64,000 nt of DNA from Pseudonocardiales bacterium. Its GTDB lineage: Bacteria > Actinomycetota > Actinomycetes > Mycobacteriales > Pseudonocardiaceae. The stretch covers positions 1 through 64,000 of the forward strand of contig JAFAWY010000117.1 of the NCBI GenBank assembly GCA_019241525.1, written 5' to 3'. Under the pieces are notes generated by a model, which made no database searches, was not told where the DNA came from, and saw nothing but the letters and a program-made list of their open reading frames with translations. Position numbers and translations under genes: made by a program. Shown here one piece after another: positions 2,784 through 56,290 of this stretch (the first letter of the stretch is position 1; every line of letters starts with the position of its first letter).

Positions 2784-2908
2784 CGCCGCTCCCATCCTTT
2801 ACCCCGGCACCTCCGTAAGCAGAAATGCCGCGGTGCGCAACCTCTCTGGAATCACCACCAGCGCCCAAGCGGCCGCTTACGCGCCAAGACACCGATTCCT
2901 CGTTACTA

Positions 2909-3067
2909 CTAGTACCAGCAGCGGCGCCGGTCGTCCCAGCGCCAATGGCGCCAATGGTGCTGCTCGTCCCAGCCCCACCAGCCACGAACCCGGTCTTTAT
3001 CGTGGTGATGACCAGGATCGGGGTTGAATGCTGTTTTACCGAAGCCGAAGACGTCCATGACCCGCAT
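2909..3067 (-). CDS. MRVxEVF-family microprotein A, Trp/His/Arg-rich, 52 aa
   Basis: ATG 3067 follows the ribosome binding site GAGAGG at good spacing. The product opens MRVMDVFGFGK and ends in a tail dominated by Trp, His, Arg and Asp (WWGWDEQHHWRHWRWDDRRR, then CWY). Two other genes in this window (37025-37192 and 55421-55570) start MRVSEVF and MRVAEVF. The tail of this copy is closest to that of 55421-55570 (both have WxWD or DWR followed by RRR and an aromatic/Cys end). There is no signal peptide or membrane helix. Possible roles are metal binding, nucleic-acid binding or a ribosomally made peptide precursor; none is shown. No named family is recognised. Confidence 0.65.
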   Translation of the reverse strand: MRVMDVFGFGKTAFNPDPGHHHDKDRVRGWWGWDEQHHWRHWRWDDRRRCWY

Positions 3068-3642
3068 ATTTCGATCCTCTCTCTCGTTGGCAGGAACCCT
3101 CTTTCCGGCAACGACACGCAATGAATGGTTCCTGCTGGCACAAATGGATGACCAGACGGCAAGGGTCCATATTCCACCCCGTACGGCCGATAACTGCGGA
3201 TTCGGGCTCAGCCTAGGGCGATGACCTCTCCACCATGGAATCCTTCCTATCACTGGAGATCGCGCTGGCTTCACGGTGAGATGTTTGCCAACGCCGCCGG
3301 CCTCCGTAGCGGAAGACGTGCGATCCGGGTGCAGGTTGCCTGGAGTCTCGAAGGAATTTAGGTAGCAGCTATTCCGGGCGCCTGGCTCCCTGCATTACTC
3401 GCACGATGCGCCAGTACAGAAACAGGCGCACCCAGGAATCATCCAGAAACTCTCCAGGAATCATTCGGGAGATACCCAGGAAGCGCACCACGGCCGCTGT
3501 TCATCCGTCAGGACCAACTGACCGACCACTACGCAGATCATTACGCGGGTCACACGGCTCGACACGGTAAGTTGCGCCGACCGCAATCGGATCTTGTGTC
3601 GTAACAGCGATCAGTACCAGCTCGGACAGGGGAGGTAACGAG
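3068..3642. other. Long non-coding region between divergent units, with operator-like repeats
   Basis: This 575-base stretch separates microprotein A from the murJ leader. It has no supported gene. It holds the CCAGGAA heptamer array at 3432-3482 and further imperfect copies near 3350-3390. Confidence 0.5.
3432..3482. promoter_or_regulatory. Array of CCAGGAA heptamers at 11-bp spacing
   Basis: CCAGGAA occurs at 3432, 3454 and 3476, exactly 22 bases apart. Weaker heptamers sit at the half-steps 3443 (CCAGAAA) and 3465 (TCGGGAG), giving five sites on an 11-base period. Tandem heptamers at one helical turn are typical of OmpR/PhoB-family response regulators (known); the regulator is not identified. 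The array is 161 bases before the murJ leader ORF and 365 bases before microprotein A, so either could be the target. The same heptamer recurs in the array at 55671-55862. Confidence 0.5.
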
Positions 3643-6046: not shown

Positions 6047-9000
6047 CTAAACGGATAAGGCCGGACGGGAACTGCTGACCAGTTCGAAAGCTTTCCACAT
6101 CGAGGCATAAGGACCGCCGGCGCCAACCAGCTGCTCGTGTGACCCGACTTCGGCGATCTGGCCTTGGTGCAGCACGATGATGCGATCGGCCGATTTTGCC
6201 GTCGGCAGGCGGTGTGCAATGACAACGGTGGTCCGGTTGCGCGCGATCTGCCGCATTGCTTCCGTTACGCGTGCCTCGGTAACCAGGTCCAGGTTTGCCG
6301 TCGCCTCATCGAGGAGTAACAGCGTGGGGTTGACGTGCTCCGCACGCGCCAATGCAATCAGCTGACGCTGCCCAGCTGATAGTGAGCGCCCCCGCTCGGT
6401 TATTTCGTGGTGATAACCGCCGGGCAGAGCGGCGATGAACTCGTGTGCCCCGACCGCACGCGCGGATGCCTCCACTTCAACGTCGGTAGAGTCCGGCCGG
6501 CCGTAGGCGATGTTGTCCCGGATCGTCCCGGTGAACAGAAAGCCTTCCTGGGGCACGTAACCGAGTTGGCGGCGAAACGAGCGCAAATCCAACGACCGCA
6601 GGTCGTGACCGTCGATTTGCACGCTGCCCTCGTCGGGATCGTAGAACCGGGCCAGCAATTTCATCAAAGTCGATTTACCCGCCCCGGTCTGTCCGACGAT
6701 GGCAACCGTCTCCCCCGGCGCGATGCGCAGATTGATGCCGCGCAGCGCCTCGGGTGGCTTCGCGATCCGGGCACCGGTCGAGACCAGGACGCGGGCATCG
6801 GCCGGGCCAAGCCGCTCCCCGGTGTGCACGCTGGCGCTCCCAAGCTCCGCCGACCCGCCAGCAGATGACCTGGGATACGAAAAACGCACGTTGACGAGAG
6901 TGAGCTCACCGCGGAAGCGGGGAGTTGGCTGGGGATGCTCGGCCAGCGGTGTCGAAGTGTCCAAACGCATCAGTTGGGCGATCCGGCCGACCGAGACCCG
7001 GGTCTGCTGCCAGGAGTCGAACACTTGAGACAGCTGCTGGATCGGCGTGAAAAACATGTCGAGATAGAGCAGAAATGCGATCAGTGCGCCGATCGTGAAC
7101 TGCCCAGAGGCGATCAGTCCTGCGCCGACGGCGAACACGATGACATCGGCTATGGCGGCCAAAAACTGTACGAACGGGAAGTAAGTGGCAACAAGCCGTT
7201 GCGCGCCAACGCGGGCAGCGAGATAGTCGTAGCCGAGCCGGTGGAATCGCTTGCTTGTCTCATTCTCGTGGGTGAACGCCTGAGACTCGCGCACCCCAGA
7301 CAGACTCTCCTGGAAATCCGCATTGACAATGGCGATCCGGTCCCGCGCCAGGTCGTAAAGGCGGGCCGATTTCCGGCGAAAGATGACCGTCGCTATCGCG
7401 AGCGGGACGACGACGGTCAATGCACACAGACCGAGCTTGGTGTTGAGCAGCACAACAGCCACGCCAACCCCGACAAAGGTGACCAGCGAGACCAGTGCGG
7501 AGAGCAGTCCGTCTTCCATCAGCGATTCGAACTGGTCCACATCGGTCGTCATCCTGGTCATGATCCGACCGGCCATTTCCCGCTCGTAGTAGTCCAGCGA
7601 GAGGCGTTGCAGCTGGGCCCAGATCCTGATCCGCAATGAAAGCATGATCCGCTCGGCGGTGCGGCCGGTGACGAAAGTCTCGCCGACCTGGTCGATCAGG
7701 TTGGCCAGGGTTACGACGAGGAACATCGCGGAGAACAGGAAGACCACGGCTTGGGAACCGGTCGACACCCCATTGTTGACGCCGTTTTTGACCAGCACCG
7801 GTCCGGCCAGTCCGCTTAGCGCGTCGAGGACCACCAGCAGCAGGCCGACCAATAGTGGTCGGCGGAACTCACGAAGCAATCCGGCCAGCCGGAAATTTCG
7901 ATCACGGCGCGATTCCCTGGCGATGTCAGCAGCGTCCAAGGTCGCGAAGTCCCGCACTGGGGGAAGCGCCGCGACCCGGGTCAGCAGCTCGGGACTTGGA
8001 GCGAGGTTGCGACGCCAGCCACTCCCGCCACCCAGGCCGGGGCCGATGCTCGGGGCGCCGATCGTGGCCACCGTGTGCGGGCGCGCGTTCGCGGTGCCCC
8101 GGGCGCGGCCGTCGCCGGTCCACGCGGAGTCAGTACGGGTGCCGAGACCTGTGGTCAGCATCTGGTCTATGACCTGGTTCTCCACCTGGTCTGCGCTGTC
8201 CTGGAGCCCGGAGATCAGTCTGCGATAGAGGGTGCTGCGCGCGATGAGGTCCTCGTGCGTGCCCTGGTCGGCGATGCGGCCCTGATCGAGCACGACGATG
8301 CGATCAGCCAGGTGCAGCGTGGACCGGCGGTGTGCGATCAGCACCGTCGTGCGGTTGGCCAGCACGCCGCGCAGGGCGTCATGGATGGCCTCTTCCACCT
8401 TGGCGTCGATGGCGCTGGTGGCATCGTCGAGGATCAGGATCCGCGGGTCAGCCAGGATCGCCCTGGCCAACGCGAGGCGTTGGCGTTGCCCGCCAGACAG
8501 GGTCAGACCACGCTCACCGACCATCGTGTCGTAGCCGCCCGGCAGTTCCTCGATGAATCCGTGCGCATGGGCGATCCGCGCGGCTTGTTCGATGTCTTCG
8601 TCGGTGGCGCTCGGGCGGCCGTAGCGGATATTTGCCCGGACGGTGTCGGAGAACAGGAAGCTTTCCTCGAAAGCCACGCCCACCTGGCGGCGCAGGGACT
8701 TCAAGGTCACAGTGCGCAAGTCATGGCCATCCACTGTCACGCTGCCAGCGTCTGGATCGTGGAAGCGGGACAGCAGCATCGCCGCGGTGGATTTGCCGCT
8801 GCCGCTGGGCCCGACGATGGCGACCCGTTCTCCGGCCGCGATATGCAGGTCGAAACCACGCAACACCGCGGGGCCGTCACCGTAGCCGAAATGCACGCCG
8901 CGGAAAGCGATCTCCCCGCGTGACTGGGGCAGCTGCACCGCATCCGGGGCGTCGGCAATGGCCGGCGGAAGGTCCAGGAGCTGGAAAATGCGCTCCACTG

Positions 9001-10027
9001 CGGCCCTGGCCTGCTGGGCGACGGCGATGACGCCGGCAAACTGCCTGGCTGGTGCGACGAACTGGGCGATATAGGTGGAAAAGGCGAGGAACGTGCCCAG
9101 CGTCAGGTGGTGGCGCAACACCAGCCAACCACCGAAGGCCAAGATAGCGACCTGGCCGAGTGACGGAATCGCCTTGAGCAACGGCTGGTAAAGCGCCTGC
9201 AGCCGGACCGCTCGCATCCGCGCACCGTAAAGCGACTTGGCTGCCTCGACGATGCGGCCGAGTTCCCGATCCTCCTGGCCGAAGGCCTTGACCACGCGCA
9301 CGCCATTGACGTCCTCGTCCACGATTTGTGCGACGTCACCTTCCCGTTGCTGGGCATCCCAGCTCGCCGGGAACACCCGCGAGCGCATCCGGTAGGAGAT
9401 CCCGACAAGCACCGGCGCGACGATCAGGGTGACGATGGCCAGCAGCGGGGACAGGAAGAACATGACCCCCAACGAGATCAGCATCAGCAGCACGTTGCCG
9501 CTCATCAGCGGGAAGAAATTGAGCAAGCCCTGGACGAGCATGGCGTCGGAATTGGCTCGGGCGACAAGTTGGCCGGTGGGCATTCGCCCGAGGTTGTCCA
9601 GGTCCATCACCTGCAAGTGATCGTGCATGGCGTTGCGCAGGTCGTACTGGACTTGCAAGCCGACCTGCCCACCCCGGTAGCGGCGCAGGTAAGCCAAGCC
9701 GAAGCTGGCGACCGCAACCCCGATCAGCAACGCCAGCCATGGCCACAGCGGTGAGTCGCGCCGGACGATGACTCCATCGATGATCTGCCGGGAGATCAGC
9801 GGCACCAGTGCCTGGCATGCGCTGCCGAGTAACGCGCCGGTCAAGGCGAGTGCCACGTTGCGCCGGTGCTTGAGCACGTATCCGGTCAGCCGCCGGATCC
9901 ATCCTCGCCTTCCGGTTGCCGACTGGTGCGCCGGCCGGGTGAGGGGAGCATCCGGCCCGCCGCTGGACGGGCCGGATACGCCTCCCGACCCAGTGATGTG
10001 GCCTACCTCGGCTGCAGGTGTAGGCAC
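6047..10027 (-). CDS. Fused double ABC exporter (TMD-NBD-TMD-NBD)
   Basis: This 1326-residue protein joins two complete type IV ABC exporter halves. Half one has a transmembrane domain (about 40-340), Walker A GPSGSGKST (about 404) and signature LSGGQRQRLALARA (about 505). Half two has Walker A GQTGAGKST (about 1109) and signature LSAGQRQLIALARA (about 1214); both have Walker B and H-loop histidines (IAHR). In bacteria such halves are usually two genes; here a Gly/Ala/Arg-rich linker (about 620-680) joins them. It starts at GTG 10027, two bases after the ABC-2 permease stop, so it ends a four-gene leftward operon. Probably multidrug or lipid export. Confidence 0.92.
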   Translation of the reverse strand: MPTPAAEVGHITGSGGVSGPSSGGPDAPLTRPAHQSATGRRGWIRRLTGYVLKHRRNVALALTGALLGSACQALVPLISRQIIDGVIVRRDSPLWPWLALLIGVAVASFGLAYLRRYRGGQVGLQVQYDLRNAMHDHLQVMDLDNLGRMPTGQLVARANSDAMLVQGLLNFFPLMSGNVLLMLISLGVMFFLSPLLAIVTLIVAPVLVGISYRMRSRVFPASWDAQQREGDVAQIVDEDVNGVRVVKAFGQEDRELGRIVEAAKSLYGARMRAVRLQALYQPLLKAIPSLGQVAILAFGGWLVLRHHLTLGTFLAFSTYIAQFVAPARQFAGVIAVAQQARAAVERIFQLLDLPPAIADAPDAVQLPQSRGEIAFRGVHFGYGDGPAVLRGFDLHIAAGERVAIVGPSGSGKSTAAMLLSRFHDPDAGSVTVDGHDLRTVTLKSLRRQVGVAFEESFLFSDTVRANIRYGRPSATDEDIEQAARIAHAHGFIEELPGGYDTMVGERGLTLSGGQRQRLALARAILADPRILILDDATSAIDAKVEEAIHDALRGVLANRTTVLIAHRRSTLHLADRIVVLDQGRIADQGTHEDLIARSTLYRRLISGLQDSADQVENQVIDQMLTTGLGTRTDSAWTGDGRARGTANARPHTVATIGAPSIGPGLGGGSGWRRNLAPSPELLTRVAALPPVRDFATLDAADIARESRRDRNFRLAGLLREFRRPLLVGLLLVVLDALSGLAGPVLVKNGVNNGVSTGSQAVVFLFSAMFLVVTLANLIDQVGETFVTGRTAERIMLSLRIRIWAQLQRLSLDYYEREMAGRIMTRMTTDVDQFESLMEDGLLSALVSLVTFVGVGVAVVLLNTKLGLCALTVVVPLAIATVIFRRKSARLYDLARDRIAIVNADFQESLSGVRESQAFTHENETSKRFHRLGYDYLAARVGAQRLVATYFPFVQFLAAIADVIVFAVGAGLIASGQFTIGALIAFLLYLDMFFTPIQQLSQVFDSWQQTRVSVGRIAQLMRLDTSTPLAEHPQPTPRFRGELTLVNVRFSYPRSSAGGSAELGSASVHTGERLGPADARVLVSTGARIAKPPEALRGINLRIAPGETVAIVGQTGAGKSTLMKLLARFYDPDEGSVQIDGHDLRSLDLRSFRRQLGYVPQEGFLFTGTIRDNIAYGRPDSTDVEVEASARAVGAHEFIAALPGGYHHEITERGRSLSAGQRQLIALARAEHVNPTLLLLDEATANLDLVTEARVTEAMRQIARNRTTVVIAHRLPTAKSADRIIVLHQGQIAEVGSHEQLVGAGGPYASMWKAFELVSSSRPALSV

Positions 10028-33940: not shown

Positions 33941-34017
33941 GCAGCAAACCGTAGCTCGCAAGCGTCTGGCATCGTTAACAGCGCCTGGCTGGCCGGAGAA
34001 GGCCACCACATAAGGCA

Positions 34018-34064
34018 AGCCCCGTGACGCTGCCAGGTCGGGGGTCCAACAGCATCACGGGGCT
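34018..34064 (-). terminator. Hairpin ending the DUF4383 gene
   Basis: Arms AGCCCCGTGACGCT (34018-34031) and AGCATCACGGGGCT (34051-34064) pair with one mismatch around a 19-base loop. On the leftward strand it is followed by CTTGCCTTATG. It lies downstream of the DUF4383 gene. Confidence 0.6.
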
Positions 34065-34147
34065 CTACCCGTCCTATCGCCGAGGTCGACGGCAATGTTG
34101 CAGGCTTGCGCGTGATTCACCGAGTGGGCTGATACATCCCCTGTATA

Positions 34148-36940: not shown

Positions 36941-36967
36941 CCACAGCAGCACGGCCTCAAAAATCGT

Positions 36968-36996
36968 GGCCCGCACTCGGTGCCAGAGTGCGGGCC
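36968..36996. terminator. Perfect 11-bp hairpin
   Basis: Arms GGCCCGCACTC (36968-36978) and GAGTGCGGGCC (36986-36996) surround a 7-base loop, between the rightward crcB remnant and the leftward microprotein B gene. Confidence 0.75.
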
Positions 36997-37024: not shown

Positions 37025-37192
37025 CTAGCAGTCTCTATGGTGCTCGTGGCCGCATTTGTGGCCGTGGTGCTTTTCGTGGCAATGGTGCTCACCGTGATGC
37101 TCATGGTGACTCCGGTGCTCCCGGTGCTCGCACCGGCCGTGCCCGTTGTGGTGATGCCCGTAGCCGCAATGGAAAACCTCGGAAACCCGCAT
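37025..37192 (-). CDS. MRVxEVF-family microprotein B, His/Cys-rich, 55 aa
   Basis: ATG 37192 has a very strong ribosome binding site (AAGGGGAGG). The product starts MRVSEVFHCGYGHHHNGHGR and continues as a His-rich tail. About 20 of 55 residues are His and 5 are Cys (for example EHHGEHHCHEKHHGHKCGHE), with Glu, Lys and Gly between. Metal chelation is the obvious hypothesis. It shares only its first seven residues and its gene layout with the microproteins at 2909-3067 and 55421-55570. A hairpin ends the gene at 36968-36996. Its neighbours are decayed fluoride and potassium genes. Confidence 0.65.
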   Translation of the reverse strand: MRVSEVFHCGYGHHHNGHGRCEHREHRSHHEHHGEHHCHEKHHGHKCGHEHHRDC

Positions 37193-52744: not shown

Positions 52745-54145
52745 ATGACCGCATATGGTCGGAGTCGGCTCAGCCGCACGGTTCCCCTGGCCGGGCTGGC
52801 TGGCCGGACCGCTGGTGAGGCGGTGGTCGCGGCTTTGCGCAAACGGTTGACCGGCGAGGACAGCGCCGAGTTTCACAAGCGGACCAGTGAGCGTTACGCG
52901 GCCATGCTCGGCCACTCGAAGGGTGTGCTGATGAAGGCCGGGCAGGTGCTGTCCTTCGTCGCGCTCGGGTCGCTGGTGCCGCCGGAGCGGCAGCGCGTCT
53001 ACCAGGCGGCGATGGCTCGGCTGCAAGCCGATGCCCCGCCGATGGCGCCCGAACTGGCCGCGGCGGTGGTGGAGGCCGAGCTGGGCGCGCCCCCGGAGAA
53101 GGTCTTCGCGGAGTTCGACCCGCATGCGTTCGCCGCGGCGTCAATCGGCCAGGTCCACGCGGCACGGCTGGCCGACGGGCGACGGGTGGCAGTCAAGGTG
53201 CAGTATCCCGGGGTCGATCAGGCCATCCGAGCTGATCTGGACAACACCGAGTTGCTCGCCACCTTCCTGCAGCTTCTCGGTGCGGTAGTGCCCGGATCAA
53301 ACCGGCTGGATGTCCGCGCGGTGGCCCGGGAAGTGGCGGACCGGATCGGTGAGGAAATCGACTACCGCATCGAGGCCGCTTACCAGACCGACTTCGCCAA
53401 CGCGTACCGCGATCATCCGGTCATTCGTATCCCCGAGGTGGTGCCGGAGCTGTCGACGGGCCGGGTGCTGACCATGGATTTCGCCGACGGCATGCGGTGG
53501 TCGGAGGCCGTGCAGGCGGATCAGCAGATGCGGGACCGGTGGGGTGAGGTGATCTACCGGTTCGCTCTGGGCAGCCTGCGCATGGTGGGCATGTTCCACG
53601 CCGACCCTCATCCGGGCAACTACCTGTTCCATGACGACGGCGCGGTGACGTTCTTGGATTTCGGTTGCGTCAACCGGTTCTCCGCAGAACAAGTGGAGCT
53701 GATGCAACGGATCGTCGCCGCCGCGATCGACGACGACGCCACCGCCTTATGGAACACCTTTGTCGAGATCGGCTTCCTGACCGCCGCCGACGCGCCCACG
53801 CCCGCTGAACTGCTCGAATGGTACCGCGACAAGCTGCAACCGCTGGTGGCCGAGCAACCATTCACCTACACCCCGGCCTTCGCCGCATCCGTAGTGCAGG
53901 GTTACTTCGACCGCCGGGGCACCACCGGGTCGGTGATCCGCCGTGTCGAGCTGCCCCGCGAGTACGTCTTCCTCACCCGCATCGACCTTGGACTCACCGC
54001 CCTGCTCGCCGAGCTGCAAGCCACCGGCCCGTGGGCGGCGATCCGCAGTGAGTGGGACGAAGACGGACCCCCCGCCACCGAAATCGGCAAACTCGACGCC
54101 GCCCATTGGGCACGGCGCGGACTCAGACCCGCGGAGCCGTCATGA
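52745..54145 (+). CDS. ABC1/AarF/UbiB-family kinase-like protein
   Basis: The 466-residue protein has the family motif KGVLMKAGQ (about 60-68), a nucleotide-binding Lys in VAVKVQYPG (about 147), the catalytic-loop HADPHPGNYLF (about 285) and DFG-like LDFGCVNRF. Members of this atypical kinase family act in quinone and lipid metabolism (known). ATG 52745 is preferred because the ORF to 52691 overlaps the TetR operator. It overlaps the P450 gene by 4 bases (ATGA), so the two are co-translated. Confidence 0.9.
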   Translation: MTAYGRSRLSRTVPLAGLAGRTAGEAVVAALRKRLTGEDSAEFHKRTSERYAAMLGHSKGVLMKAGQVLSFVALGSLVPPERQRVYQAAMARLQADAPPMAPELAAAVVEAELGAPPEKVFAEFDPHAFAAASIGQVHAARLADGRRVAVKVQYPGVDQAIRADLDNTELLATFLQLLGAVVPGSNRLDVRAVAREVADRIGEEIDYRIEAAYQTDFANAYRDHPVIRIPEVVPELSTGRVLTMDFADGMRWSEAVQADQQMRDRWGEVIYRFALGSLRMVGMFHADPHPGNYLFHDDGAVTFLDFGCVNRFSAEQVELMQRIVAAAIDDDATALWNTFVEIGFLTAADAPTPAELLEWYRDKLQPLVAEQPFTYTPAFAASVVQGYFDRRGTTGSVIRRVELPREYVFLTRIDLGLTALLAELQATGPWAAIRSEWDEDGPPATEIGKLDAAHWARRGLRPAEPS

Positions 54146-55323
54146 TCCCGACCGTTGATCCGTACCCGACCTATCGCCGGTTGCGCGAGCAACACCCGGT
54201 GTACTGGGACGGCGACCTGGACACATTTGTGGTCACTTCCTACGCCGAGGCGAACACTGTGCTGCGCGGTCCGGGATGGAGCAGCGACCCGAGCCGCAAC
54301 CCGGCACTGGCCGCACGGATCGAGCGCGGCGAATTCGGCAACCAAGCACTGCGCACGACGCTGCTGGGAATGGATCCGCCCGAGCACACCAGGCTGCGGC
54401 GGCTGCTTGCTCCGGCATTCACCGCGCGGGCGATCGACGCGCTACAGCCCCGGATCACCGCAGTGGTCAAGGCGGCCCTTGCCGACCTTGCCACGGCGAA
54501 CGAAGTCGATGTCATCACCGACATCGGTTATCCGATCCCGCTCGCCGTGATGTGCGAGCTACTCGACGTTGACATCGAGGGCGCGCAGCTCTTGCGTACT
54601 GAGACTCCCAAGCTGGTGGGAATACTCCAATTCAACCCGGACGCCGACGCGGTCATCGCGGCCGAGGAGGCCACCGCCAGCCTCGCGCTGCATCTTTTGC
54701 CCATCCTCGGCGACCGCCGTCACCGGCCCGGCGCGGATCTGGCCAGCCAGCTGCTGTGCCTGGAGGACAACGGCGACACGCTTGGACTCGACGAAGTGCT
54801 GGCCACCTGCATCCTGCTCCTCACCGCCGGGCATGAAACCACTGCCAACGTGATCGGCAACGGGGTCCTGCTCCTGATGGAACACCCCGACCAGCTGGAG
54901 TTGCTCCAGCGTGATCCAGCGCTGATCAAGCCCACGATCGAGGAGATACTCCGGTTCGAGTGCCCGGCCAAGATCGTCGGCCGTACCAACCTTGTCGAGC
55001 GCCAACTAGGCGAGCAGACGATCCGTCCCGGCGAGCGAGTGCTCGTTCTGCTCGGTGCAGCGAACCGGGACCCGGCGCAGTTTCCCGATCCCGAGCGCTT
55101 TGACATCACCCGAACTCCCGCACCACACCTCGCTTTCGGGGCGGGACCGCACTTCTGCCTCGGAGCTGCCCTGTCCCGCGCGGAAGCCCAGGAAACCCTG
55201 CGGCAACTGCTGCCCCTCCTGACCGGGTGGCGACTGGCATCAGAAGCGCCCGCCTGGCGGGTTTCCGATACCTTCCGCGCACTCGAGAAGCTGCACCTCG
55301 TCAGTCCCGCGGCTCACGCCTGA
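54142..55323 (+). CDS. Cytochrome P450
   Basis: The 393-residue protein has the oxygen-binding I-helix LLTAGHETTANVI (about 225-237), the K-helix E-x-x-R region (IEEILRFECPAKIVGRT) and the heme-binding loop FGAGPHFCLGAAL with Cys339. These mark a soluble bacterial P450 that needs ferredoxin. It overlaps the ABC1-kinase gene by 4 bases, so a shared lipid or quinone-type substrate is possible. Convergent, 98 bases away, lies the Trp-rich microprotein C gene. Substrate unknown. Confidence 0.93.
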   Translation: MIPTVDPYPTYRRLREQHPVYWDGDLDTFVVTSYAEANTVLRGPGWSSDPSRNPALAARIERGEFGNQALRTTLLGMDPPEHTRLRRLLAPAFTARAIDALQPRITAVVKAALADLATANEVDVITDIGYPIPLAVMCELLDVDIEGAQLLRTETPKLVGILQFNPDADAVIAAEEATASLALHLLPILGDRRHRPGADLASQLLCLEDNGDTLGLDEVLATCILLLTAGHETTANVIGNGVLLLMEHPDQLELLQRDPALIKPTIEEILRFECPAKIVGRTNLVERQLGEQTIRPGERVLVLLGAANRDPAQFPDPERFDITRTPAPHLAFGAGPHFCLGAALSRAEAQETLRQLLPLLTGWRLASEAPAWRVSDTFRALEKLHLVSPAAHA

Positions 55324-55366
55324 CGGCCGCCGTTTGCCCTTTACCGCACTTGGCCACCCGACAGGG

Positions 55367-55405
55367 CCCGCGGCGGGCCCCGCTTGTCGCGAGACCCGCC
55401 GCGGG
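55367..55405. terminator. 11-bp GC-rich hairpin between convergent genes
   Basis: Arms CCCGCGGCGGG (55367-55377) and CCCGCCGCGGG (55395-55405) flank a 17-base loop between the rightward P450 gene and the leftward microprotein C gene. Confidence 0.7.
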
Positions 55406-55420
55406 GCAGCTGGTCGGCGG

Positions 55421-55570
55421 TTAGTCGTCCCAGCACCAGTAGCGGCGACGGTTTCGCCAGTCCCAGGCCCAGTGCCCGCGGTGATGGCGGCGCTGGTCAT
55501 CTTCCCAGCGGCGATCGGCGGGCTGCTGGCGCCCGGTGCTGATCGGCGTGAACACTTCGGCTACTCGCAT
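55421..55570 (-). CDS. MRVxEVF-family microprotein C, Trp/Arg-rich, 49 aa
   Basis: ATG 55570 has a strong site (GAGGGAGGATT). The product starts MRVAEVFTPISTGRQQPADR and ends in a tail of His, Arg, Trp and Asp (RRHHRGHWAWDWRNRRR, then YWCWDD). It resembles microprotein A (2909-3067) in both the N-terminus and the Trp/Arg tail, and shares the N-terminus with B (37025-37192). It lies convergent to a P450 gene, and its upstream region holds a 74-bp tandem repeat of CCAGGAA heptamers. No signal peptide. Precursor peptide or metal/nucleic-acid-binding roles are open. Confidence 0.65.
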   Translation of the reverse strand: MRVAEVFTPISTGRQQPADRRWEDDQRRHHRGHWAWDWRNRRRYWCWDD

Positions 55571-56290
55571 TGCGAATCCTCCCTCATCAGCTGGGGACCG
55601 GACACTCCCCGATGTCCCCGCTGGGCATATCGACAGACGTTGGGTGCAAGTTTCCAGCCGGCGTTCATTCCCAGGCAATTTTTAGCTATTCTCAGATAAA
55701 TTCCAGGAAAGGTAGCTGTCAGTGAGCACGGGTGCCAACTTTTTCCAGGAAATTTTCAGCCATTGCCAGGGTAAACTCCAGGAAAGGTCGGCGCCGGTAG
55801 GCGCCGGCGCCATCTTTTCCAGGAAATTTTCAGCCATTCCCAAGATAAATTCCAGGAAAGGTGACTGGCGGTAAGCCGCACGCGTACGTAGCTGAACTGC
55901 GCTAACGCACACATTGGTCCACCGGCGGCCCGTTGTGCGGTTGGTAGCAATCCCTCGATCGACTGCAAGTTTTTTGTGTTCATTTTGAAGACGCACCGTT
56001 TCCCGCTGAAGTTGGTGTGCGGGAGCGCTGCCCACTGGCGCCCCCGCACTGACCCGAACCGCTCGATTCGACAGCAGCTGCTAATCTGCGCGGCTTACTG
56101 TCGAATTTGAGTGCTATTCCCTTGCGATGCAATGCTGGCGTCGGTGCCGCCCTCCACACAATTCACTTCGGCAGTCACGCACTCGAGTTACATGTAACGG
56201 TGTCCGTCGTTCATCAGTTGCTGATCAGATGGTCAATCCAGCCAGGTCTGCTGCACCTACTACGGGTCGGGGAATCAGGAAGGAATGCCC
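55571..56290. other. Non-coding region with repeat array and promoter
   Basis: 720 bases between the microprotein C gene and the phosphoesterase gene. It contains the 74-bp repeat array (55671-55862). A leftward open frame of 117 codons (55682-56035) crosses the array but looks incidental. The region from 55870 to 56290 has no other supported feature. Confidence 0.5.
55671..55862. repeat. Three 74-bp-period direct repeats with internal 11-bp heptamer phasing
   Basis: Copies at 55671-55713, 55745-55788 and 55819-55862 are about 44 bases each, start every 74 bases, and are separated by unrelated spacers of about 30 bases. In each, CCAGGAA-like heptamers lie at offsets 0 and 33 with weaker ones at 11 and 22, the same 11-base phase seen at 3432-3482. 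This looks like a cluster of response-regulator sites 101-292 bases upstream of microprotein C. Copy 1 is more diverged, with one deleted base. Confidence 0.65.

Follow-up and report, generated by a model that had tools for sequence, protein, structure and literature searches.

Microproteins with a short fixed head and variable tails, found in one genus of uncultured actinobacteria: a possible docking signal with sticky tails

Three small genes that a sequence-only reading had picked out in a 64,000-nucleotide stretch of a Pseudonocardiales contig (the window) belong to a real microprotein family, which is larger than that reading reported. The family comprises at least 80 distinct proteins of about 46–77 aa that begin with a head of approximately the form M-[RK]-[VI]-x-x-[VI]-F, and in our searches it was found only in one genus of uncultured actinobacteria. 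As the best explanation, which we hold tentatively and put at somewhat below even odds, we propose that the head is a docking signal and that the tails are interchangeable, self-associating sticky modules.

Three genes in the window

The genes and the head of the first are as follows.

2909..3067, minus strand: microprotein A, 52 aa, with a Trp/His/Arg/Asp-rich tail and the C-terminus RRRCWY; translation MRVMDVFGFGKTAFNPDPGHHHDKDRVRGWWGWDEQHHWRHWRWDDRRRCWY
3047..3067, minus strand: conserved head of microprotein A, MRVMDVF
37025..37192, minus strand: microprotein B, 55 aa, with a His/Cys-rich tail; translation MRVSEVFHCGYGHHHNGHGRCEHREHRSHHEHHGEHHCHEKHHGHKCGHEHHRDC
55421..55570, minus strand: microprotein C, 49 aa, with the tail HWAWDWRNRRRYWCWDD; translation MRVAEVFTPISTGRQQPADRRWEDDQRRHHRGHWAWDWRNRRRYWCWDD

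The ORFs lie where the sequence-only reading had placed them without giving a strand, and each carries the MRV-x-[DE]-VF start that it had attributed to all three. Its view that no family known to it explains the tail of A agrees with the profile searches, which gave no Pfam or NCBIfam match for A, B or C even at an E-value of 10. The ribosome binding site of gene A is weaker than claimed, being GAGAGAGAGG and not GGAGG, and the proposed search filter (GGAGG plus a downstream hairpin) would lose members such as A.

Relatives of A are encoded in L200, L216, L049 and L259 (46–83% identity), a relative of B in L060, and four relatives of C in L046, L051, L061 and L062. A scan of 52 members of the family gave no Pfam match, no PHROGs match and one marginal NCBIfam match (E 0.0073, 1 member). 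A literature search surfaced no description of the family, which is not proof of its absence from print.

Size of the family and form of the head

Members were chosen by a head rule that requires R or K at position 2. An earlier set held 66 distinct proteins in 187 partly overlapping loci; the union of the locus set with matches to a DNA pattern of the head gave 78, and profile searches added 2 more. The added proteins, from L267 (MIISDIF, His-rich tail) and L269 (MEITEIF, close to the L263 protein), have I and E at position 2 and keep [VI]-x-x-[VI]-F, and the rule may miss further members. Distinct sequences do not equal independent events, orthologues being shared by close relatives.

The DNA pattern (ATG-MRN-RTN-NNN-GAN-RTN-TTY, V/I allowed) matched 70 times across the 11 genus genomes, compared with once in the reversed control. 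Every genome had matches: 11 in the window genome, with 0 in controls, and between 2 and 14 in every other one. The earlier picture, of dispersed genes whose short head is fixed and whose tails vary, is what was found. Without the start codon, the head pattern matched the 4.7-Mb window genome 10 times (2 in the reversed control), and five of the 10 were family members. Because matches far exceed reversed controls, the head is not a product of chance. The window genome holds two further ORFs with the head pattern, on contigs C79 and C57.

All but two of the 70 strict matches (68/70) opened ORFs of 46–77 aa, and there was no long protein among them. The remaining two, ORFs of 123 aa (L205:2585-2953) and 17 aa (L223:1288-1338), may be damaged or misassembled Gly/Cys-rich members and were left out of the member counts.

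Among the 78 members, position 2 is R in 66 and K in 12, position 3 is V in 44 and I in 34, position 4 is S/A/T/M/K, position 5 is E/D in 68, position 6 is V in 37 and I in 41, and position 7 is always F, usually followed by T/S/A-x-G. R/K and V/I are thus freely swapped at positions 2, 3 and 6, where the invariance of the class is partly by construction, members having been chosen by the head rule. G occupies position 10 in 65/78 members, and GG positions 10–11 in 36/78. The proposed motif stands as a fixed short head; its form is closer to M-[RK]-[VI]-x-x-[VI]-F, in most members with x-x-G behind it, than to MRV-x-[DE]-VF.

Taxonomic range

Two profiles were searched, A2 built on 21 members and A5 on 52 of the at least 80. 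Profile A2 matched 10 of the 11 genus genomes, the best match per genome having an E-value of about 5e-11 or lower; weak A2 matches that lack the head also occur, at E above 0.05. At E 0.01, profile A5 likewise matched 10/11 genus genomes, and it matched none of the 286 further genomes in the taxonomic family; at E 0.001 its single match among 397 genomes of the order was the window genome itself. No more than 20 candidates per genome were scored in the family scan and no more than 15 in the order scan, so the lack of matches outside the genus does not amount to full absence. Every one of the A5 matches listed for the genus and the taxonomic family begins at profile position 1. The head pattern matched twice in the eleventh genome of the genus (G010), in ORFs rich in Trp/Gly and Tyr/Gly. 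The sequence-only reading had named a lack of homologues in related genomes as a ground for giving the family up; homologues were found in the genomes of the genus.

Over 100 relatives, those of the translated pattern matches that combine an ATG, a ribosome binding site and a short Y/H/W/G-rich ORF lie in the genus itself. A scan of a wider collection of genome contigs for the strict head plus GGAG gave 63 stretches, of which 13 encode family-like proteins by our reading (L075, L076, L091, L093, L096, L098, L099, L106, which is cut off, L119, L120, L122, L127 and L128); all 13 come from MAGs labelled Pseudonocardiales, Pseudonocardiaceae or Actinobacteria. The proteins encoded by the other 50 were read as unrelated. 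Pattern matches outside the genus were rejected as members and read as chance, those translated opening longer or unrelated frames. A mobile or viral origin was also set aside: microprotein A had no match in plasmid or phage collections, and two matches to the head pattern on viral contigs open unrelated ORFs.

Coding status and tails

Equal change at synonymous and non-synonymous sites had been named as a further ground against the family. Synonymous change in fact outran non-synonymous change, with dN/dS values of 0.06–0.60 (no significance test) in 20 pairs of more than 70% identity among 66 members, each pair being short, with about 27–52 synonymous sites. For the window genes and their closest relatives the values were 0.155 for A (L200), 0.060 for B (L060) and 0.184 for C (L061). 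The codons of the head also vary synonymously among the 66 members (AGG, CGG, CGA, AGA and CGC for R; GTT, GTC and GTA for V), and therefore what is conserved is the protein. From these comparisons, the close pairs look to be under purifying selection and the genes to be protein-coding.

Relative to neighbouring proteins, the tails of the 78 members are enriched in Y (6.1-fold), H (3.6-fold), W (3.6-fold), C (3.5-fold) and G (2.6-fold), and depleted in V (0.09-fold), A (0.15-fold) and L (0.33-fold); Val, Ala, Gln, Thr, Leu and Ile stand at 0.09–0.35 of their level in those proteins, and M is absent. This aliphatic-poor, aromatic/Arg/His/Gly-rich composition is that of low-complexity 'sticker' peptides. 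No stretch reached the hydrophobicity expected of a signal peptide or membrane helix, the top 15-residue Kyte–Doolittle mean being 1.07.

The tails have diverged, as had been claimed, and they also form conserved subtypes with a common chemistry that recur across genomes. C-type tails end in CWDD (5 loci), A-type tails carry WWxxxD and a C-terminal WD (5 loci), a His/Cys type occurs at 2 loci, there are several Tyr/Gly types, and a Trp/Gly-repeat type has eight members (L303, L304, L308, L328, L331, L332, L333 and L336).

AlphaFold2 gave weak models. With five A-type sequences, strands were predicted at residues 30–33 and 39–42 (pLDDT about 76–78), residues 1–13 fell below pLDDT 50, and the mean pLDDT was 61.7 with a pTM of 0.37; with 52 members, strands were predicted at 30–33 and 39–44 (mean 60.9). 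Aromatic residues alternating around turns suggest that tails may form beta-hairpins.

Upstream and downstream elements

Two upstream designs were recognised among the members, counted on the set of 66, later members not being included. The first, the Tyr-type block, lies 49–327 nt upstream of the ATG in 36/66 members and consists of TTG, 20 bases and TA..TT (promoter-like), followed by TGACCACGGnGAGTAAGG. Across the genus its motif gave 44 matches with at most one mismatch, compared with 5 in the reversed control, and 28 of the 30 exact matches sit upstream of members by their coordinates. Among the exact copies, one (L204:951, G001:C373) had no family ORF that could be found downstream and one (L212, G006:C130) lies inside the apparent frame of another gene. 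We read the block as promoter-proximal DNA. A riboswitch was rejected, RNAalifold on 36 sequences giving no consensus pair and Rfam on 10 loci only three sub-threshold matches (E 0.14–0.47).

The second design consists of TTCCTGG-like sites, which mostly precede A, C and their relatives, including the C-type relative in L061. The sites and the structures downstream of the window genes are as follows.

3432..3482, minus strand: three TTCCTGG repeats exactly 22 bp apart, 371–415 nt upstream of A, candidate regulatory sites
55668..55858, minus strand: six TTCCTGG-like sites 33–42 bp apart, upstream of C
2790..2911, minus strand: structured region downstream of A, not a canonical terminator (folding z −3.0)
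36959..36996, minus strand: intrinsic-terminator-like hairpin with a T run, downstream of B (z −4.5)
55359..55416, minus strand: strong GC-rich hairpin with no T run, downstream of C (z −3.3)

The Tyr-type block was present in 0/17 Cys-ending W/H members, a subgroup made up of members with a Cys among their five C-terminal residues and one further member assigned by rule. This definition makes the Cys enrichment of the subgroup a matter of construction and leaves two A-type relatives outside. TTCCTGG-like sites occur in 9 of these 17 (25 sites versus 1.2 in shuffles) and in 11 genes of the other 49 members (13 sites versus 4.1), for a motif picked after seeing A and C and compared with mononucleotide shuffles only.

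Of the terminator hairpin attributed to gene A, the folding stood, being better than in shuffles, and the terminator was weaker than claimed: the structure is not canonical, with 1 site versus 0.8 expected in shuffles. Between B and C, only the B hairpin has a T run. Family-wide, a downstream stem of at least 10 bp was found in 66 of the 76 members with enough sequence (22% of mononucleotide shuffles), and one of at least 9 bp in 71/76 (50% of shuffles). Eighteen members have in common the downstream sequence GGCGGTGGC...GCCACCGCC.

Short, Tyr/Trp/His-rich ORFs behind conserved upstream elements could also be regulatory leader ORFs (attenuators) or untranslated by-products. We regard this as very improbable in view of the dN/dS values of the 20 close pairs, the excess of downstream hairpins over shuffles at both stem lengths and the lack of any amino-acid biosynthesis operon among the annotated neighbours.

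The window also contains, at 34014-34069 on the minus strand, a match to the Rfam F6 family (F6 TB sRNA; 57.1 bits, gathering score 46), a candidate F6 small RNA outside mycobacteria.

Gene neighbourhoods

In 58 mapped loci, orthologues share their surroundings, which change from one subtype to another; neighbours were domain-typed for some representatives only. Gene A has SDR, MurJ and MarR genes as neighbours and a fused ABC exporter at a distance of about 3 kb, and gene C has an ABC1-kinase and the following P450.

54142..55323, plus strand: cytochrome P450 gene, convergent with C; adjacent in 2/5 C-type loci (window, L061)

The P450 was rejected as a maturase of C or as part of the system on the ground of that limited adjacency. 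The fused exporter is one 1276-aa ORF (6047-9877, minus strand) with two ABC_membrane and two ABC_tran stretches, and a fragment of its cluster lies near the A relative in L200.

Gene B has iron-permease-like and TrkA-like neighbours. For one Tyr-type locus they are NuoF-like and MoeA genes plus an MsbA-like exporter, or a MoeA gene together with a PBP domain, and for other subtypes ferritin-like plus cupredoxin, DsbA- and DsbD-like, TldD/TldE-like (L059), a sugar transporter and others. Gly/Cys/His-rich members in L209, L258, L260, L261 and L264 sit beside paired genes of one cluster, which is ferritin-like in L260, the sole one typed; a cupredoxin-like gene is present in four of the five loci, L261 being the exception.

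These neighbours bear on an unlikely alternative, that the microproteins handle metals as His/Cys/Asp-rich buffers or chaperones whose head docks to metalloprotein or transport systems. The tail of B is dominated by His, Cys and Glu, and a ferrous-iron-permease-like gene lies about 0.7 kb from B, with a homologue also at the L060 locus; the subtypes beside ferritin-like and cupredoxin, DsbA/DsbD-like or molybdopterin genes point the same way. A metal-buffer role fits B best. However, many Tyr/Gly- and Trp/Gly-rich members are poor in metal ligands, and the MurJ/MarR neighbours of A and the P450/ABC1-kinase neighbours of C show no metal theme. The Hpn-type proteins of Helicobacter are His-rich and bind metals. 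They resemble microprotein B in composition, whereas the rest of the family is not dominated by His and Cys, and we know of no head common to the two groups.

The alternative of modified peptides

A fixed head, a hypervariable tail and multicopy genes, seen here in 78 members (52 aligned), would also describe RiPP precursors, the head being a short leader for one promiscuous maturase encoded elsewhere and the tails hypervariable cores cross-linked at Tyr, Trp, His or Cys and exported by an ABC transporter. We consider this somewhat improbable, and less probable than the docking reading. In its favour, residues of these kinds are those that radical SAM and P450 enzymes cross-link, and the G at position 10 and the GG at 10–11 loosely resemble a processing site. 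An MsbA-like ABC exporter adjoins the microgene in 7 of the 58 loci, all of one syntenic type (L044, L052, L056, L058, L195, L198 and L206; domain-typed in L056 only), and the fused exporter lies near A. Some TldD/TldE-family proteins are known leader proteases, and such genes stand beside the microgene in L059.

Against it, a dedicated maturase was not recognised among the four enzyme families surveyed (YcaO, MNIO, PqqD and SPASM) in the 11 genus genomes. YcaO was found in 4/11 and MNIO in 3/11, neither in the window genome. PqqD-like and SPASM matches occur in 11/11, about 1 kb apart on one contig each, and were read as PQQ clusters, which replaced mycofactocin as their owner once PqqA-like ORFs were seen: such an ORF is present at both of the two loci read, and a PQQ cluster is assumed for the other nine. 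In 8/11 genomes the single SPASM match is the one beside the PqqD match; some genomes have additional PqqD or SPASM matches beyond the PQQ cluster. The combination of a double-glycine leader with a C39 exporter was not found either, GG occurring in 36/78 members and the one typed exporter (L056) having ABC_membrane and ABC_tran and no C39 peptidase domain. Neighbours are also unrelated across subtypes. On this four-family survey, the odds of the RiPP reading would appear to be lowered.

The PqqA-like precursors at the two PqqD/SPASM loci read, in two genus genomes, are long, at 58 and 49 aa (L337:3307 and L338:8901). Just outside the window, a PqqD-like ORF adjoins a 619-aa ORF (L067:6227-8339, about 66.2–68.3 kb on the contig), and the pair could represent a separate RiPP locus.

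Among known systems, prochlorosin and Nif11-type precursors have a long leader and, like the microproteins, a conserved N-terminal and a variable C-terminal part. The GRRM peptides, or triceptides, are radical SAM-associated, Gly-rich repeat peptides with repeated Trp, Tyr or His. The microproteins share Gly-rich tails and repeated Trp/Tyr/His with the latter, but none of the 52 scanned members, which did not include the Trp/Gly-repeat type, had such an NCBIfam match. One solitary promiscuous enzyme modifies the set of related prochlorosin precursors of each organism (PMC10783134). In contrast to prochlorosins and Nif11-type precursors, the microproteins have a head of only 7–11 residues and no recognised maturase, occur in one actinobacterial genus and, for 52 members, lack Pfam and NCBIfam matches save the marginal one.

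Discussion

A seven-residue address that carries dozens of tails, and that was seen only in small soluble proteins, implies that something must read the head. We tentatively prefer a docking partner, with the tail as effector, over a maturase with the tail as a RiPP core, which we regard as the less probable of the two. The fixed F7 combined with R/K and V/I exchange, the lack of any long protein among the 70 strict head matches, the composition of the tails, the lack of signal-peptide-like or membrane-helix-like stretches, the AlphaFold2 pattern of a low-confidence head before two strands and the differing neighbours of the subtypes count for docking. Counting against it, a RiPP leader would give a fixed head just as well, the exporter at seven loci and the fused exporter near A would suit a product that is exported, the AlphaFold models have low confidence, and His/Cys-rich tails would equally bind metals.

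In the docking mechanism that we propose, the head, with hydrophobic residues at 3, 6 and 7, usually a basic residue at 2 and an acidic one at 5, and a Gly-rich break behind it, would serve as a short linear docking signal, and one common partner would bind all heads. The soluble, aliphatic-poor tails, with their abundance of Tyr, Trp, His, Arg and Gly, would act as self-associating sticker modules, and those of some subtypes might fold into aromatic beta-hairpins. With a separate gene for each paralogue and at least two schemes of control, the cell could fill the same docking site with different sticky tails. The outcome would be a protein-rich assembly that is built or tuned in this way, for example an envelope layer or an intracellular condensate.

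A more specific and rather doubtful form of this idea is a genus-private 'plug-in' system, in which one seven-residue address would bring roughly a dozen exchangeable tails of low complexity (Tyr/Gly, Trp/Gly, His/Cys and Trp/Arg) from different promoters to a common scaffold, as a modular code for building condensates or envelopes. To our knowledge, such a docking code has no bacterial counterpart. His/Tyr-rich proteins of the squid beak phase-separate through His–Tyr contacts (PMC6884462). As disordered, His/Tyr-rich sequences they offer a model for self-association of the tails; they are animal and extracellular, and their likeness to the microproteins is one of composition only.

The fixed head, the free tail and the common upstream elements point to one common receptor or enzyme. 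Identifying what reads the head would bring to light either modified peptides of a new class, with dozens of natural cores, or a docking code for low-complexity proteins in bacteria. One genus carries a large, dispersed and apparently selected microprotein family, the head of which is a ready bait.
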